A stretch of DNA of 36,092 nucleotides, taken from positions 1 to 36,092 of the forward strand of contig JAFAOG010000627.1 of the NCBI GenBank assembly GCA_019237945.1, given 5' to 3'. Under the pieces are notes generated by a model. It saw nothing but the letters and a program-made list of their open reading frames with translations. It did no database searches and was not told the DNA's origin. Positions 5,357 to 16,420 of this stretch are shown piece after piece (position 1 is the first letter of the stretch; each line of letters starts with the position of its first letter). A program made the translations under genes and the position numbers. The DNA is from Deltaproteobacteria bacterium. GTDB lineage: Bacteria; Myxococcota_A; Polyangia; Haliangiales; Haliangiaceae.

Positions 5357-6655
5357 ATGTCGTCGGCCCTGATCATCGCGGCGGCGCGCCAGGACGCGCT
5401 CGAAGCCGCGCTGCGCGACGCCGGTTGTACCGATGTCGACACCGCGCCCTTCGATGAAGCGTCGGCCCTCCTCGCTGTCGAACGCCGCGCGCTCGTCGTC
5501 GCGGATATCGTCGAGGCCGAGGACGCCGATCGCCTCGCCCCGCTCGCCGATGGCCTGCGCGGCACGCCGCTGCTCGCGATCGCACCCGAGCACTTGCTCG
5601 AGGCTGCGTTCGAAGCCGGCGCGACCGACTGCATCGCGACCCCGATTCGTGGCGCCGAGCTCACCGCTCGCCTGCGCGCCGCACTTCGCTGCAAGACGCC
5701 GTCGCATCGCCGCTCGCGCCGCGAACGCCGGCTCACCGAAGAGCTGCACGAGCTGCAGCGCCAGAAGCAGGAGCTCGAGCGCATCGCGTGCGTCGACTCG
5801 CTGACCGGAATCGCGAACCGCCGCCACGCGCTGAGCCTGCTCGACGCCGAGTGGAAGCGCTCGGCCCGCGACGGCACGCCACTCTCGCTCGTGATGGTCG
5901 ACCTCGACTGCTTCCACGCGTTCAACGAGCACTACGGTCACCTCGGCGGCGATCGATGTCTGCGCCAGGTCACCGATTGCATGGTGCGCTGCCTGCGACG
6001 CCCGTCCGACTTCCTCGGCCGCTACGGCGGCGAAGAATTCTTCGCCGTCCTCGCCGGCACCGACGCCGAAGGCGCCGCGATCGTCGCCGAGCGCATGCGC
6101 GCCGCGGTCGAGTCGCTCGGCATCCCGCACGAGAAGTCGCAGTGCGCGAAGGTCGTCACGATGTCGGTCGGCTTCGCGACCTGCCGCCCCACGCTCAACG
6201 GCAACGCCGAAGCGCTCGTCAACGCCGCCGACCATGCGCTGCTCGCCGCCAAGGCCGACGGCCGCAACCGCATCCAGGGTCAGGCCCCCACCCGCACCGA
6301 ACGCCCGCGCCTCGCGTCCACCCCGTGGCGCCGCTTCCCGCCGGTGATCGCCGACCCGTGGTTCGCCGACCGCATCCCGCCGTTCCTCGCCTCGACGCGC
6401 GACGAGATCACGCGCCTGCGCGACGCGACGACCGCCGGCACCTTCGATCGCATCCGCGCGCTGTCGCGCCGCCTCCGCGTCTCCGCCGGCGAGCACCAGA
6501 TCGAGACGATCGCGGAGCTGGCGGGCATGCTCGAGCGCGCGGCCCGCGCCGGCGACGCCGAGTCGCTCTATCGCGTCCTCGACGAGCTCGACGCCTACGT
6601 CGCCCACGTCCAGGTCACCTACCGCCGCCCGATCGAGCTCGAACGCGCTGGCTGA
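5357..6655 (+). CDS. Receiver-like / GGDEF / degenerate HPt protein, probable diguanylate cyclase
   Basis: 432 residues in three parts. Residues 1-112 resemble a receiver domain but lack the N-terminal acidic pair, and the usual KP near the end reads TPIR. A coiled linker (about 113-145) leads to a GGDEF domain with an intact active site GGEEF (224-228) and an inhibitory-site motif RPSD (215-218) exactly five residues upstream. This indicates synthesis of c-di-GMP from two GTP with product inhibition. Residues about 340-425 look like an HPt four-helix domain, but where the phosphorylated histidine should be (AHxLKGSAG) the sequence reads SRRLRVSAG, with R371 in the His position. It is encoded 3 nt after the zinc-ribbon gene. 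Catalysis is well supported; control by phosphotransfer is unlikely from sequence. Confidence 0.88.
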   Translation: MSSALIIAAARQDALEAALRDAGCTDVDTAPFDEASALLAVERRALVVADIVEAEDADRLAPLADGLRGTPLLAIAPEHLLEAAFEAGATDCIATPIRGAELTARLRAALRCKTPSHRRSRRERRLTEELHELQRQKQELERIACVDSLTGIANRRHALSLLDAEWKRSARDGTPLSLVMVDLDCFHAFNEHYGHLGGDRCLRQVTDCMVRCLRRPSDFLGRYGGEEFFAVLAGTDAEGAAIVAERMRAAVESLGIPHEKSQCAKVVTMSVGFATCRPTLNGNAEALVNAADHALLAAKADGRNRIQGQAPTRTERPRLASTPWRRFPPVIADPWFADRIPPFLASTRDEITRLRDATTAGTFDRIRALSRRLRVSAGEHQIETIAELAGMLERAARAGDAESLYRVLDELDAYVAHVQVTYRRPIELERAG

Positions 6656-9077: not shown

Positions 9078-9998
9078 GTGCAGTGCACGGTTGTTGGCGC
9101 TGGCGTGATCGGATTGTCGACCGCGCTCGCGCTCGAGGAGCACGGGCACGAGGTGCGGATCGTCGCGGAGAGCGTCGGCGCGGCGACGACGAGCGCGGTG
9201 GCGGGCGCGGTGTGGTTTCCCTACAAGGCCGGGCCGCCAGCGCGCGTGGCGGCGTGGGCGGTGCGCACGCGGCAGTGGCTCGAGGAGCTCGCGCGCACGA
9301 CGCCGGAGGCCGGGGTCGACGTGCTCACGGGGTACGAGATCACGCCCGACGACAGCTGGCCGTGGTGGGCCGAAGGCGTCAGCGAGCTCGTGCGCGCGCC
9401 CGCGCCGGTGAAGGGCTCGCCGATCGCGTGGAAGTTCACCGCGCCGCGCGCGCAGCCGAGTCTGTTCTTGCCGTGGTTGCAGGGGCGGCTGAAGGCGCAC
9501 GTCGAGCAGCAGCGCATCACCGAGCTTGCCGACGTGCCCGGCGACGTCGTGATCAACTGCACCGGGTTGGCGGCGCGCGAGCTCGCGCACGACGACGCGA
9601 TGTATCCGTTGCTCGGGCAGCTCGTGATCGCGGCGGTCGGCGGCGCCGATCTATCGGCGAGCATCACCGACGATCGCGATCCCGACAGCTTCTTCTACAT
9701 CATCCCGCGCCGCGACGAGCTCGTGCTCGGCGGCTGCTCGCTGCCGCGCGCGTATGGCTCGCGTGCCGAGCTCGATGCGGCGATCAAGGCGCGGATCATC
9801 GCGCATGCGGCGCGCCTCGGCATCGAGATCGGCGAGCTGCGTGGCGAACGCGTCGGGCTGCGGCCGTATCGGCCGGAGGTGCGGCTCGAGCGCGACCCGG
9901 CGAACCCGCGCATCGTCCACAACTACGGGCATGGCGGCGCTGGGTTCACGCTCAGCCGCGGCTGCGCGGAGGACGTGGCAGCGCTCATCGCAAGCTAG
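9078..9998 (+). CDS. FAD-dependent D-amino-acid oxidase family protein
   Basis: 306 residues with an N-terminal Rossmann motif GAGVIG (7-12) followed by the acidic end of beta2 (VRIVAES). An internal NCTGLAAREL matches the segment of the DAO family near the flavin, and the C-terminal HNYGHGGAGFTLSRGCA is the DAO signature around the flavin. It would oxidise a D-amino acid or related amine to the imino acid with release of H2O2. D-amino-acid oxidase is more likely than glycine oxidase or the Asp/Glu-specific enzyme, but specificity is not readable here. The GTG at 9078 is the only suitable start. The final TAG overlaps the stop of the converging kinase gene in the palindrome CTAG. Confidence 0.88.
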   Translation: MQCTVVGAGVIGLSTALALEEHGHEVRIVAESVGAATTSAVAGAVWFPYKAGPPARVAAWAVRTRQWLEELARTTPEAGVDVLTGYEITPDDSWPWWAEGVSELVRAPAPVKGSPIAWKFTAPRAQPSLFLPWLQGRLKAHVEQQRITELADVPGDVVINCTGLAARELAHDDAMYPLLGQLVIAAVGGADLSASITDDRDPDSFFYIIPRRDELVLGGCSLPRAYGSRAELDAAIKARIIAHAARLGIEIGELRGERVGLRPYRPEVRLERDPANPRIVHNYGHGGAGFTLSRGCAEDVAALIAS

Positions 9999-11392
9999 CC
10001 GATGATGCCGCCGAGGTAGAGACCTCCGGCGGTGGCCAACGCGAGCAGCACGACCGCGATCGCGATCATCACCGGCAGCGGCAGCGACTTCTTGTCGGTC
10101 GACGGCGTCGCCTTGACCTTGAACGTCACCTGCGGCTCGGTCTTCGCGTCGATCTTCTCGGGGATCGTGTCGGGCCCGACGGCCGCGTTGGGGCCGGACT
10201 TCGGGCTCATCATCAGCGTCGGGTCGTCGTCGCCGACGCGCTTCTTCGTGCCTTCGATGACGGCGGGGGCCGTGGCCGGTTGCGGCGGCGGGGGCGCGGG
10301 CGGCTGCGCCTGCTTGAGCGGCGCGGGGACCGGATCGATCGCGGTCAGCTCCTGCGACTGCGAGAACGCGCTGATCGGGCGCTGCATGCCGGGACGCGGC
10401 TCGTGCATGCGCGCCGGCGCCTTGTCGTGTGGGATCTCGTCCATCGCGAGCACGGCCGGGTGGACGATGCCCTGCGTGAGGCAGACGTCCCACGCCTCGC
10501 GCAGCGCGGCCTCGGCCTCGCCGGCGTCCTTGAAGCGCGCCTTGTCGCTCGGCTGCAGCGCCGTCATCGTGATCTGCGCGAGCGGACCGGGGATCGACGG
10601 GTCGTGGCGCGTCGGCGGTGGCGCGTTGCCCTGCACGACGTAGCCGTTCGTCGTCTTGGTGTCGGGACCTTCGTACGGGATGCGGCCCGACATCAGCTCG
10701 TACATCACGGCGCCCCACGCGAACACGTCGGCTTGCGGTGTGTAGCGACCCTCGCGGATCGCCTCGGGCGGCGAATAGCCCGGCGTGCCCATGAAGATAC
10801 CGACCTGGGTGAGGTCGCTATCGGGCAGGCGCGCGATGCCGAAATCGGCGAGCTTCCAGCGGTTGTCGCCGGCGTGCAGCACGTTCGCCGGTTTGACGTC
10901 GCGATGCACGATGCGCTGGCGATGCGCGAACGACAGCGCGCTCGCGAGGTCGAGGCCGATCTGCACGCAGCGCGCGAGCGGCAGGCGCACGCGATCGAGG
11001 CGATCCGCGAGCGATTCGCCCGGCAGGTACTCGAGCACCATGAACGGCGCGCCGCTGTCCTCATCGACGCCGACGTCGAAGATCGTCACGATCGCCGGGT
11101 GCGACATCTTCGCGGCGGCCTTCGCCTCGCGCTGGAACCGCTCGAGGAACGCGCTGCGCACGCGGCGGCCCTGCTGCTGGGGCGACATGATCGTCTTGAC
11201 CGCGACGACGCGGTCGAGCAGCGGGTCGCGCGCCTTGTAGACGACGCCCATCGCGCCCTTGCCGATGGTCTTGATGACCTCGTAGCGGCCGATGGTCTTG
11301 CGGCCTTCCTCGCCGACCAGCCCCAGGCCCGGCGGCGCTTCGGCGCGCAGTCGCGTGTTCGTACGCGGACGTGCTTGGGCGTCTTCGGCCAT
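9995..11392 (-). CDS. Membrane-anchored Ser/Thr protein kinase (Hanks type)
   Basis: 465 residues. The kinase domain (about 37-300) has the glycine loop GKGAMG, catalytic K66 (VAVK), HRDVKPANV with D165, and DFG at 183-185, so it should be active. A Pro/Ala-rich linker (about 310-435) ends in one C-terminal transmembrane helix (about 437-460) with only a few residues beyond. The kinase therefore faces the cytoplasm and has no extracellular sensor. It is the last gene of the peroxiredoxin - hydrolase - cysE operon, 21 nt after cysE. Its 3' end overlaps the oxidase stop. Regulation of the neighbouring enzymes by phosphorylation is conceivable but not shown. Confidence 0.93.
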   Translation of the reverse strand: MAEDAQARPRTNTRLRAEAPPGLGLVGEEGRKTIGRYEVIKTIGKGAMGVVYKARDPLLDRVVAVKTIMSPQQQGRRVRSAFLERFQREAKAAAKMSHPAIVTIFDVGVDEDSGAPFMVLEYLPGESLADRLDRVRLPLARCVQIGLDLASALSFAHRQRIVHRDVKPANVLHAGDNRWKLADFGIARLPDSDLTQVGIFMGTPGYSPPEAIREGRYTPQADVFAWGAVMYELMSGRIPYEGPDTKTTNGYVVQGNAPPPTRHDPSIPGPLAQITMTALQPSDKARFKDAGEAEAALREAWDVCLTQGIVHPAVLAMDEIPHDKAPARMHEPRPGMQRPISAFSQSQELTAIDPVPAPLKQAQPPAPPPPQPATAPAVIEGTKKRVGDDDPTLMMSPKSGPNAAVGPDTIPEKIDAKTEPQVTFKVKATPSTDKKSLPLPVMIAIAVVLLALATAGGLYLGGIIG

Positions 11393-11413
11393 CGCTCCCG
11401 CGAGTAGTTTAGC

Positions 11414-12361
11414 CTATTTCTGCGTCCGACTCGAACCCGATATCTTGGTGCCGGCGGCCACCGACGACGTGATGAACGCGTTGCCGCCGATGACGGCCCC
11501 TCGCCCGATCACGGTGTCGCCGCCCAGGATCGTCGCGTTCGCGTAGATCACGACGTCGTCCTCGATCGTCGGGTGCCGGCGCTTGCCCGGCTCGGGGCGC
11601 GTAGCCCCCTGGGGCACGGTCAGCGCGCCCAGCGTCACGCCCTGGTAGATGCGCACGCCCTTGCCGATCAGCGTCGTTTCGCCGATCACGACGCCCGTGC
11701 CGTGATCGATGAAGAACGGCACGCCGATCTCGGCGCCCGGGTGGATGTCGATGCCGGTGCGCCGGTGCGCGAGCTCGGTCATCATGCGCGGGATCACGAC
11801 CGCACCCTCGCGGCACAGCGCGTGCGCGATGCGATAGACGGTGATCGCGTAGTTGCCGGGATACGTCAGCAGGATCTCGTCGACACCCGACGCCGCCGGA
11901 TCGCTCGCATACGCCGCATGCAGATCGGCCGACAGCTGCGCCCGGAGCTCCGGCAGGTGCGCCATGAAGCGCTCCGTGACGTCGTCCGCCTTGCGCGTGC
12001 AGTCCGCGCACTCGAGGTCGTTGCGCCCGAGCGCCTGCTGCCGCTTGTGATGGAGCGCGCGATAGACCTGGCGATGCAGCGCGGTCCGCAGCTCCTGCAG
12101 ACGGCCGAGCACGAGCTCGCGCAGCTGCTTCTCGTCGGCGCGCGCGACATCGGGCCCCGCGTATCCCGGGAACAGCAGCGCGCGGCACATCTCCACGACG
12201 CGCTCGACCTGCGCATCGCTGGGCAGCTCGTAGCTGCCGATGTGCTGCATCTCGTGCGCCTTCGGATCGAGATACGCGTCGAGCAGGTCTTCCGCGACAC
12301 CCGCGAGCGGATCGCGGGCCTCGCCCTGAACCCGCAGCGGACGCCGTTCCGACATTCCCAA
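11414..12361 (-). CDS. cysE: Serine O-acetyltransferase
   Basis: Makes O-acetylserine from serine and acetyl-CoA, the committed step of cysteine synthesis. The C-terminal third is a left-handed beta-helix of hexapeptide repeats ([41 protein letters not shown], then the [12 protein letters not shown] type). The catalytic His/Asp region is in [12 protein letters not shown]. The alpha-helical N-terminal domain is longer than in the E. coli enzyme (315 residues in all) and contains a CADC pair near 130. This resembles the EpsC/SAT group with an extended N-terminus. The start is 3 nt after the hydrolase stop; a second ATG two codons on is equally good. The product links to the pyruvate/acetyl-CoA theme upstream only through acetyl-CoA. 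Confidence 0.9.
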
Positions 12362-14053: not shown

Positions 14054-14971
14054 TCAGCGCGGGGTGGGCTCGGGCGCGTCGTTGATCTTCTGGATCACGG
14101 CGTCGAGCTTCTGCTCCGGAATCGTCACGCGCGTCGGCATGCCGCCTCCGAGCTCGAACAGCTGCACGAAGTCCCAGCCCGACTCGAAGCCGGCCGCGAT
14201 CGTGAGCATCCCCGAGTCGCGCACGATCGAGACCGGCGCCCTCTCCTGCCCCGCGAGCAACAGGTCGGTCTTGTCGAACTGCCCCGCGAGTCCCTCTGTA
14301 TCGACGACGGCCACGCGCCCACGGATCGTGAATCGCCGCGACAGCTCGCGCGTCACCGCGTCCTTGCGCTCGAACTCGGCGGCCGCCTCCGCGATCAGAT
14401 CATCCTGGACGCCCTTGCCCATCCCGCCGACGAGCCACTGCACGACCGCACGCTTGAGCTGGTCATCGCGAAACTTCGCGCGCAGCGCCCGGTCTATCCG
14501 AGTCGCAATGGCGCCCGGCGTGCCGATCCGCGTGTCGACCGCGCGCGCATCGTCATCGGCGCCCTTGTACGGCTGCTTGCCGTCGAGGATCCACTTCGCG
14601 GCCGCGTAGAGCCCGTCGAGGTCGACGTGCGTGACGATCGCATCGATCGGCCCGGTGGTCCGCACGAGCTCCTCGGTGACCATCTCGGGACACGCGCCAT
14701 GCTCGGCCTTCGTCGACAGCACGAACCGCGGATCGCGCGCGAACTCGGCGTGCCGCTCGTGATCGTGATGATCGACCCACGCGGCGAGCCGATCGCCGAG
14801 CCCCTTGATGAACGGCTGCGTCGTCAGCTCGAACGAGACACTCGTGCCCACCGTCGCCGCGAATGCGATGTCGAGCACGACGACGCGCCCGGGGACCTTC
14901 TCGGCCTTCGGCAACAGGCGCGGCGACGCAAACGCGAGGTGGGGCAAACGCACGTGTGGGAACCGTAGCAT
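14054..14971 (-). CDS. DHH-type phosphoesterase with permuted motif order
   Basis: 305 residues. The sequence VVVLDIAF (D34), then WVDHHDHERH (D67-H68-H69) and finally THVDLDGLYAA (H115, D117, D119) contains the metal-binding motifs of DHH phosphoesterases. In the NrnB/RecJ superfamily, however, the HxDxDG motif comes first, followed by the single Asp and then DHH. Here the order is Asp, DHH, HxDxDG. The C-terminal part (about 250-295: VSIVRDSGMLTIAAGF, then LGGGMPTRV) resembles a DHHA1 substrate-binding domain. Expected activity is metal-dependent hydrolysis of short oligonucleotides, cyclic-nucleotide products or similar phosphoesters in the cytoplasm. The gene stands alone, divergent from 14990 across 18 bp; the start was chosen as the only ATG near the fold's beginning. 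Confidence 0.72.
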   Translation of the reverse strand: MLRFPHVRLPHLAFASPRLLPKAEKVPGRVVVLDIAFAATVGTSVSFELTTQPFIKGLGDRLAAWVDHHDHERHAEFARDPRFVLSTKAEHGACPEMVTEELVRTTGPIDAIVTHVDLDGLYAAAKWILDGKQPYKGADDDARAVDTRIGTPGAIATRIDRALRAKFRDDQLKRAVVQWLVGGMGKGVQDDLIAEAAAEFERKDAVTRELSRRFTIRGRVAVVDTEGLAGQFDKTDLLLAGQERAPVSIVRDSGMLTIAAGFESGWDFVQLFELGGGMPTRVTIPEQKLDAVIQKINDAPEPTPR

Positions 14972-14977
14972 CCCGTG

Positions 14978-14984
14978 TACGATC
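14978..14984. promoter_or_regulatory. Overlapping -10 hexamers of an 18-bp divergent promoter
   Basis: Plus strand TACGAT (14978-14983) ends 6 nt before the GTG at 14990. On the minus strand GATCGT (14984 to 14979) ends 7 nt before the ATG at 14971, although this hexamer matches TATAAT poorly (three of six). Only 18 bp separate the two start codons, so the two promoters must share this spot or lie inside the opposite gene. Confidence 0.35.
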
Positions 14985-14989
14985 GGTGC

Positions 14990-16420
14990 GTGAGGAGGCT
15001 CGCGGTTGTCGTCGTCGTGGCCGCCTGTGGTCGGATCGGCTTCGATGGCACGACCTCGCGCGTGAATGACGCGACCCGCGACACCGCGAGCGATGTCCGC
15101 GGCGATGCCGCCCTCCTGCACACCGAGCTGACGCCGAGCAACGCCAATGGCGGCGATCTGTTCGGCAACGCACTCGCGCTCTCGCGCGATGGTTTGACGC
15201 TCGTCGCCGGCGCGCCTCGCGAGGACAGCAGCGCGACGGGCATCAACGGCAACGAGTCCGACAACTCGCTGACGGACGCCGGAGCCGCGTACGTGTTCGT
15301 GCAATCGGCGTCGGGATGGTCGCAGCAGGCGTACATCAAAGCATCGGTCAACCGATCGCTTCCGCCCGGCAACTTCGGCGAGACCGTCGCGATCTCCGCG
15401 GACGGCAACACGCTCGCGGTCGGCCAGAGTCTCTGCGACACGAGCGCGCTCGCCACCGGCTGCGTCGAGGTCTTCACGCGCAGCGGCACCACGTGGACGT
15501 TCCTGCAGCGGGTGACCGCGATGTTCGCCGACCAGGACGACCTGTTCGGAATCTCCGTCGCGCTCTCCGACGACGGCACGACGCTCGTCGTTGGCGCGGA
15601 GCAAGAATCGAGCTCCGCGACCACGATCAACGGGAACCAGCAGGACAACTCGTCGATCGCCCAGGGCGCCGCGTTCGTGTTCGTGCGCAGCGGCAACGTC
15701 TACGCGCAGCAGGCCTATCTGAAGGCGCCCAACGGCGAGAATCACGACGGCTTCGGCTCCAAGGTCGCGTGCAGCGGCGACGGCAACACCGTCGCGGTCG
15801 GCGCCATCAGCGAGGCGAGCGGTGTCCCGACCGATCCGACCGACAACTCGCGTCCGCAGGCGGGTGCGGTCTACGCGTTCACGCGCCAGGGCGTGGCGTG
15901 GACGTTCGGCGCGTACATCAAGGCGCCGATGATCACGACCGGAGACTTCTTCAGCTCCTCGTTGAGCCTCTCGGGCGACGGCACGCGGCTCGTCGTCGGC
16001 GCGCCGGGCAGTGATGTGGCGGTCTCGAATGGCGGAGCGGTCGATGTCTACACGCTCGGCACGACCGCGACCCTCGAGACGACGCTGACGGCGAGCATCC
16101 CGGGCGACACCGATCAGCTGGGGGTCAGCGTCGCGATCTCGGGCGACGGCACCACGATCCTCGCCGGCGCGGCTCTCGAGGACAGCGGCTCGACCGATCC
16201 GAACGACAACAGCGCGGCCGATGCAGGCGCCGCGTATCGCTTCGTGCGCTCGGGCACGACGTGGACGCAGACCGAGTACATCAAGCGCGCGACACCGGTC
16301 GCCGGCGACAACTTCGGCTATCCGCTCGCGATGTCGCAGGATGCCAGCGTGATCGCGATCGATGCCGGCCTCGCCAATGCGGCCGCGGGCGTCGTGACCT
16401 TGACCTACTTCGGGCAGTGA
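14990..16420 (+). CDS. Seven-bladed FG-GAP-type beta-propeller lipoprotein
   Basis: 476 residues. The GTG at 14990 gives a short lipoprotein signal ending VVAAC followed by GRIGFDG; a GTG 15 nt upstream is in frame but would weaken the signal, and TACGAT sits 6 nt before 14990. After a variable stretch come seven repeats of the form FGxxVALSxDGxTLVVGA, each spaced by about 55-70 residues with Asp-rich loops (for example INGNESDNS and NDNSAADAGAAYRF). This is the layout of a seven-bladed integrin-alpha/FG-GAP propeller that binds calcium in its loops. It would sit on the outer membrane facing out, for adhesion or ligand binding. The last 16 nt overlap the converging TPR gene. Confidence 0.8.
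   Translation: MRRLAVVVVVAACGRIGFDGTTSRVNDATRDTASDVRGDAALLHTELTPSNANGGDLFGNALALSRDGLTLVAGAPREDSSATGINGNESDNSLTDAGAAYVFVQSASGWSQQAYIKASVNRSLPPGNFGETVAISADGNTLAVGQSLCDTSALATGCVEVFTRSGTTWTFLQRVTAMFADQDDLFGISVALSDDGTTLVVGAEQESSSATTINGNQQDNSSIAQGAAFVFVRSGNVYAQQAYLKAPNGENHDGFGSKVACSGDGNTVAVGAISEASGVPTDPTDNSRPQAGAVYAFTRQGVAWTFGAYIKAPMITTGDFFSSSLSLSGDGTRLVVGAPGSDVAVSNGGAVDVYTLGTTATLETTLTASIPGDTDQLGVSVAISGDGTTILAGAALEDSGSTDPNDNSAADAGAAYRFVRSGTTWTQTEYIKRATPVAGDNFGYPLAMSQDASVIAIDAGLANAAAGVVTLTYFGQ

Follow-up and report, generated by a model that had tools for sequence, protein, structure and literature searches.

Can a DHH phosphoesterase carry its metal-binding motifs in a permuted order and still assemble an active site? 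The question is raised by a gene on the reverse strand of contig JAFAOG010000627.1 from a Deltaproteobacteria bacterium (the window, 36,092 nucleotides in all). Strand order 21345, with the DHH motif on the fourth strand, is stated to be common to all members of the DHH superfamily (PMC4846377), and the canonical plan runs beta1(HxDxDG)-alphaA-beta2-beta3(D)-beta4(DHH)-beta5-helix-motif IV. Translation of the open reading frame gave, in this order, VVVLD34IAF, D67-H68-H69, T114-HVDLDG-LYAA124 and GGGMPTRV (residues 275-282), confirming, together with the homologs, the motif order and positions listed in a first-pass annotation of this DNA, which had read the protein as a permuted DHH enzyme. 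That list did not include a fourth metal motif, for which D146 in ARAVDTRIG is the most likely residue. The order in all homologs is II-III-I-IV, against the canonical I-II-III-IV. We consider it very probable that the gene encodes a phosphoesterase of the DHH/DHHA1 superfamily, a predicted enzyme, with a circularly permuted catalytic domain, laid out as follows:

14054-14971, reverse strand: gene of the putatively permuted DHH/DHHA1 protein, 305 aa (coding 14057-14971; stop codon 14054-14056).
14870-14872, reverse strand: D34, the Asp of motif II, located where canonical strand beta3 ends (VVVLDIAF); invariant in 160/160 homologs and aligned with VLDVS of the NrnB-like family.
14765-14773, reverse strand: D67-H68-H69, motif III (DHH), located where canonical strand beta4 ends; invariant in 160/160 homologs; model strand 62-67.
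14612-14629, reverse strand: H115-V-D117-L-D119-G120, motif I; H, D, D and G invariant in 160/160 homologs.
14564-14650, reverse strand: putative displaced beta1-alphaA unit, residues 108-136 (PIDAIVTHVDLDGLYAAAKWILDGKQPYK); similarity to NrnB-like proteins is regained when it is put before residue 10.
14534-14536, reverse strand: D146, probable motif IV Asp (ARAVDTRIG); invariant, assigned by position, with a spacing like that of NrnB-like proteins and DrNrnA.
14057-14353, reverse strand: DHHA1-like C-terminal domain, residues 207-305, with DKTxLLLxGQ and GGGM; Foldseek matches to AlaRS C-terminal domains; DKT, Q242 and glycines conserved.

The reading frame between 14054 and 14971 held, but the ATG at 14971 is probably a false start. 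In relative L001 the corresponding reading meets a stop at codon 4, and other homologs start ~6-10 residues after the equivalent of this ATG; from these sequence comparisons the true start is therefore probably the GTG near 14953. With a doubtful first ATG and a single draft contig, one could suspect that a frameshift, a misassembly or a wrong start hides an N-terminal motif I. The homologs speak against it, as the same order is found in 160 of them and is kept across many assemblies, one complete genome among them. An in-frame stop lies 20 codons or fewer upstream of the match start in 17 of 50 homologs, and no HxDxDG-like motif was found in the remaining upstream open frames of these 50; homologs with a normal N-terminal HxDxDG, which the first-pass annotation had named as evidence that would count against it, were thus looked for upstream and not found. 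Given the 160 homologs and the upstream stops, the order II-III-I is old and widely kept rather than a sequencing error, and we rejected the artefact reading, to which we attach practically no probability.

The homologs were gathered with an HMM, because filtering strictly on the motif DHHDHE lost members that carry DHHDS and related variants. Full-length homologs (160/160 in the HMM alignment) all retain D34, D67, H68, H69, H115, D117, D119 and G120, and equally D70, C94, D141, D146, R148, D233, T235, Q242 and G277, and the position of the GGGH motif reads GGGM (Met in 158/160). A scan of GTDB contigs yielded 72 loci, all in Myxococcota or in MAGs labelled Deltaproteobacteria or Proteobacteria; phyla beyond Myxococcota were searched by exact peptide patterns alone, so that distant members may exist there. 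Within the class Polyangia the gene is near-universal (69 of 74 searched genomes, one copy each), and outside it three genomes of one family also carry it. Members L207 and L208, from one lineage outside Polyangia, have DHHDS in place of DHHDH and would be useful to date the permutation. No relative was found among the viral contigs, phages and plasmids searched.

Existing family models do not recognize the protein. Searches of Pfam, NCBIfam and PDB sequences returned no family match; PF01368 did not match above its cut-off (best value among 51 members, E=0.26), and PHROGs gave one weak match to an unnamed family. The canonical RecJ (L093) and an NrnA-like protein (L094) of the same genome are both recognized by PF01368. 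No permuted DHH protein is described in the literature searched for the superfamily, and within that scope this branch is undescribed.

If the catalytic domain is permuted, undoing the move should restore similarity to canonical relatives. Some Myxococcota encode canonical NrnB-like proteins (L135, L137 and L143-L151; FNGDADG...LVTGVKRD...TVLDVS...DHH...GDN...GGGR), a family found in only 10 of the 189 searched genomes of the phylum. In its natural order, our protein scored 14.9-20.4 against this family in hhalign, and the alignment covered only a piece of the C-terminal domain. Placing residues 108-136 before residue 10 raised the score to 27.5-29.2 (P 0.003-0.007; the profile P-values as a whole, 0.003-0.008, are of modest significance), and the alignment paired HVDLDG with NGDADG, LAFASPR with LVTGVKRD, VVLDIAF with TVLDVS and DHH with DHH, to which the longer alignment added GGG with GGG. 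The same block at 25 other insertion sites scored 20.0-23.0, while 120 random block moves averaged 20.4 (sd 1.5). A single random move exceeded 25, and it placed residues 105-149 before residue 20, nearly the same junction as the proposed one. With 159 sequences, NrnB-like templates again favoured the moved over the natural order (28.8 vs 15.6, and 26.7 vs 22.1). A mixed template gave 32.6 vs 24.8, yet here a control with block 108-136 before residue 20 scored higher (37.9). Moving the block brought no gain against NrnA-like profiles, including an NrnA-only template with 159 sequences, and neither the permuted single sequence nor a permuted 12-row profile had a significant match in Pfam or PDB. 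A rearranged-profile search, of the kind suggested in the first-pass annotation, succeeded against the NrnB-like family, supporting the permuted order, and failed against NrnA-like profiles, Pfam and PDB. The annotation's idea that the first strand moved behind the DHH motif is supported too, with the site refined: the strand did not go to the end of the DHH domain but follows the post-DHH helix and precedes motif IV.

The NrnB-like family is the best profile match once the permutation is undone. It comprises the Myxococcota proteins and plasmid relatives from Vibrio and Paraburkholderia (L155, L156 and L159), and shares motifs I, II (VLDVS) and III and the DHHA1 GGG with our protein. It differs in its N-terminal motif I (NGDADG), in reading GGGR where our protein has GGGM, and in having 24 instead of 33 residues between motif II and DHH. 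L155, a Vibrio plasmid relative, adjoins a class IV adenylate cyclase gene.

Structure prediction points to the same superfamily. AlphaFold with 51 homologs modelled the full chain at pLDDT 93.0 and pTM 0.89, with strand 11-16, strand 30-33 (followed by D34), helix 47-61, strand 62-67 (DHH), helix 72-77, strand 83-85, helices 94-106, strand 111-115 (HVDLDG), helix 118-128, helices 138-181, a linker helix 188-211 and an alpha/beta DHHA1-like domain. The DHH motif follows the third predicted core strand, against the fourth in canonical DHH proteins; placing residues 111-128 first gives beta1-alphaA-beta2-beta3-alpha-beta4-beta5-alpha-helices, which is the DHH plan. All 28 Foldseek matches of the full chain in the PDB at E≤1e-3 were DHH proteins, led by 7d62 (PggH, 3.4e-6) and 8a8k (archaeal PAP phosphatase, 6.9e-6). 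AlaRS C-terminal (DHHA1-type) domains were also retrieved, and the named top matches among viral models were NrnB- and DHH-type phosphohydrolases. Superfamily membership, as first proposed, is thus supported by the fold of the model.

These matches could nevertheless owe much to the C-terminal half. Modelled alone, core 1-185 had a pLDDT of 95.4 and a pTM of 0.91 and found no significant match in Foldseek, which aligns in sequence order (the best DHH protein, 8ioo, ranked second with E=0.38, and other DHH proteins lower), so the linker and DHHA1 may account for a large share of the full-length score. This failure is as expected for a permuted core, though no proof of permutation. It would also suit a fusion of a DHHA1-type domain to some other Rossmann-like metal enzyme with convergent DHH-like motifs, as would sequence profiles that were never strongly significant. 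We think such convergence improbable. After moving the unit, the protein agrees with DHH enzymes in all motif residues including a fourth Asp, in spacing, in the succession of secondary-structure elements and in the linker; VVLDIAF resembles TVLDVS, the NrnB-like motif II; and the whole-chain TM of 0.53 with 8a8k_A would exceed what a DHHA1 domain alone should give.

We compared motif spacings with two NrnB-like proteins. With the move undone, motifs I and II are 42 residues apart in our protein versus 44 in both of them, and DHH and D146 (motifs III and IV), less the inserted unit, 50 versus 48; in DrNrnA the distance from DHH to motif IV is ~51 (PMC11229311). The interval between D34 and DHH (II-III) is longer, 33 versus 24. 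Residue covariation was computed by a mean-field method on 132 sequences (77 effective), and its values are unstable, varying widely among subsamples. The pairing of strand 110-116 with strands 11-17 and 29-35 reached the 92nd percentile of blocks, that with the DHH strand the 29th, and that with strand 82-88 the 10th. Beta1 thus covaries most with beta2 and beta3 and least with beta5, as strand order 21345 predicts (PMC4846377), and this sequence signal is suggestive, at most, of a beta1 that still sits between beta2 and beta3.

The permuted domain would read, by element, beta2-beta3(D34)-beta4(DHH)-beta5-helix-beta1(HVDLDG)-alphaA-motif IV(D146)-linker-DHHA1, with the protein now beginning at the canonical beta2. 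We propose that beta1 returns to its place between beta2 and beta3 within the parallel sheet, where H115, D117, D119, D34, H68 and D146 would bind two divalent metals, probably Mn2+. H69 would contact the scissile phosphate and the GGG loop of DHHA1 may hold the nucleotide. Closure of the active site, metal binding and catalysis are thus all predicted features of the permuted protein.

The metal ligands of NrnA are H20, D24, D26, D80, H103 and D156 (PMC5593865), and every one has an invariant counterpart in the permuted homologs, which makes an active two-metal phosphoesterase likely as judged from sequence. The replacement of the GGGH histidine by Met might instead indicate a permuted but inactive protein whose role is structural or regulatory, like that of Cdc45. 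However, Cdc45 has lost three metal ligands (PMC4846377), while here the presumed ligands are invariant in 160/160 homologs, and we regard a dead protein as very unlikely.

The protein shares with NrnA and RecJ the two-metal motifs I-III and, as judged by position, probably IV, together with DHHA1 and a helical linker, while these have the canonical strand order 21345, and GGGH where ours has GGGM. Bacillus-type NrnA carries RxRxR in DHHA1; the corresponding region of our protein reads SGMLTIAAGFESG and has no RxRxR. PggH, a pGpG-specific phosphodiesterase of Vibrio cholerae (7d62), gave the best Foldseek E-value (3.4e-6) and is of similar length, but identity is 12% and the rmsd in sequential alignment is ~9 A. 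The second fold match by entry, MtPAPP of Methanothermococcus thermolithotrophicus (8a8k; TM up to 0.53), is like ours a stand-alone DHH-linker-DHHA1 protein in a sulfur-metabolism setting; its folding order is reported to be the same as in NrnA and RecJ (PMC10322725), and it has no detectable sequence similarity to our protein. By fold the protein groups with the DHH/DHHA1 enzymes and it probably works like them, yet it departs from the motif order that defines them.

What would such an enzyme hydrolyse? The first-pass annotation proposed linear dinucleotides or nanoRNA (pGpG, pApA) and a link to nearby c-di-GMP genes. In favour of the substrate, PggH is the top fold match, NrnA and NrnB are stand-alone DHH-DHHA1 nanoRNases (PMC12709177), and Orn was not found in several gene-carrying relatives of other families. 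Against it, the genome of the window already has Orn (present in its genus) and an NrnA-like protein, and our protein lacks RxRxR and has GGGM instead of GGGH. We therefore see a permuted enzyme acting mainly on these substrates as possible but rather unlikely. The c-di-GMP link was not supported: by regex and Pfam, the window holds one such gene, a GGDEF diguanylate cyclase whose C-terminal domain is Hpt-like (5357-6652, forward strand; weak Hpt match, E=0.003), which lies 7.4 kb away and is absent from the conserved neighbours, in a genome with Orn, an NrnA-like protein and RecJ. An FG-GAP repeat protein (14975-16420, forward strand) is divergent from the DHH gene and also outside the conserved neighbours.

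The recurrent partner is another gene:

11414-12361, reverse strand: serine O-acetyltransferase (CysE-like), downstream of the DHH gene; TIGR01172 E=2.8e-46, below the curated cut-off.

Among the 65 loci with enough downstream sequence to reveal CysE, 27 (the window included) have a same-strand CysE gene on the downstream side of the DHH gene. The two are often immediate neighbours, and the pairing extends to families with as little as ~57% DHH identity; L054 has a CysE homolog upstream. In the window, peroxiredoxin and nitrilase-type genes separate the two, with CysE 1.7 kb downstream. The neighbour CysE has a long N-terminal extension (window and loci L001-L030 and L054), and a serine/threonine kinase-like ORF directly downstream of it (9998-11410, reverse strand) is kept in ~20 loci. 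In a few loci an adenosine deaminase gene directly follows the DHH gene.

The frequent CysE gene and the presence of a DHH PAP phosphatase among the two closest folds make 3'-phosphoadenosine 5'-phosphate (pAp -> AMP) our best single guess at the substrate, a tentative one in which we have low confidence. The archaeal MtPAPP works in sulfate assimilation (PMC10322725). Some relatives carry the DHH gene without PF01507 reductases, which weakens the case for a pAp role linked with sulfate assimilation. Genes of the inositol-phosphatase superfamily, to which CysQ belongs, are widely distributed.

Taken as a whole, the reading that we favour, with some reservation, is that of a first circularly permuted DHH family: an active two-metal enzyme with beta1-alphaA between DHH and motif IV, fixed in an ancestor of Polyangia, near-universal there and dedicated to cysteine or adenine-nucleotide (pAp) metabolism. 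Searches for DHH families assume the common strand order, and a permuted branch missed by Pfam and NCBIfam means that counts of DHH enzymes are too low. The two-metal site may accommodate a shift in the position of the strand that bears motif I, and the permuted family would offer a natural system for studying the origin of circular permutation in an ancient nuclease fold. For Polyangia, it provides a first annotation for a gene found in nearly all of their genomes.
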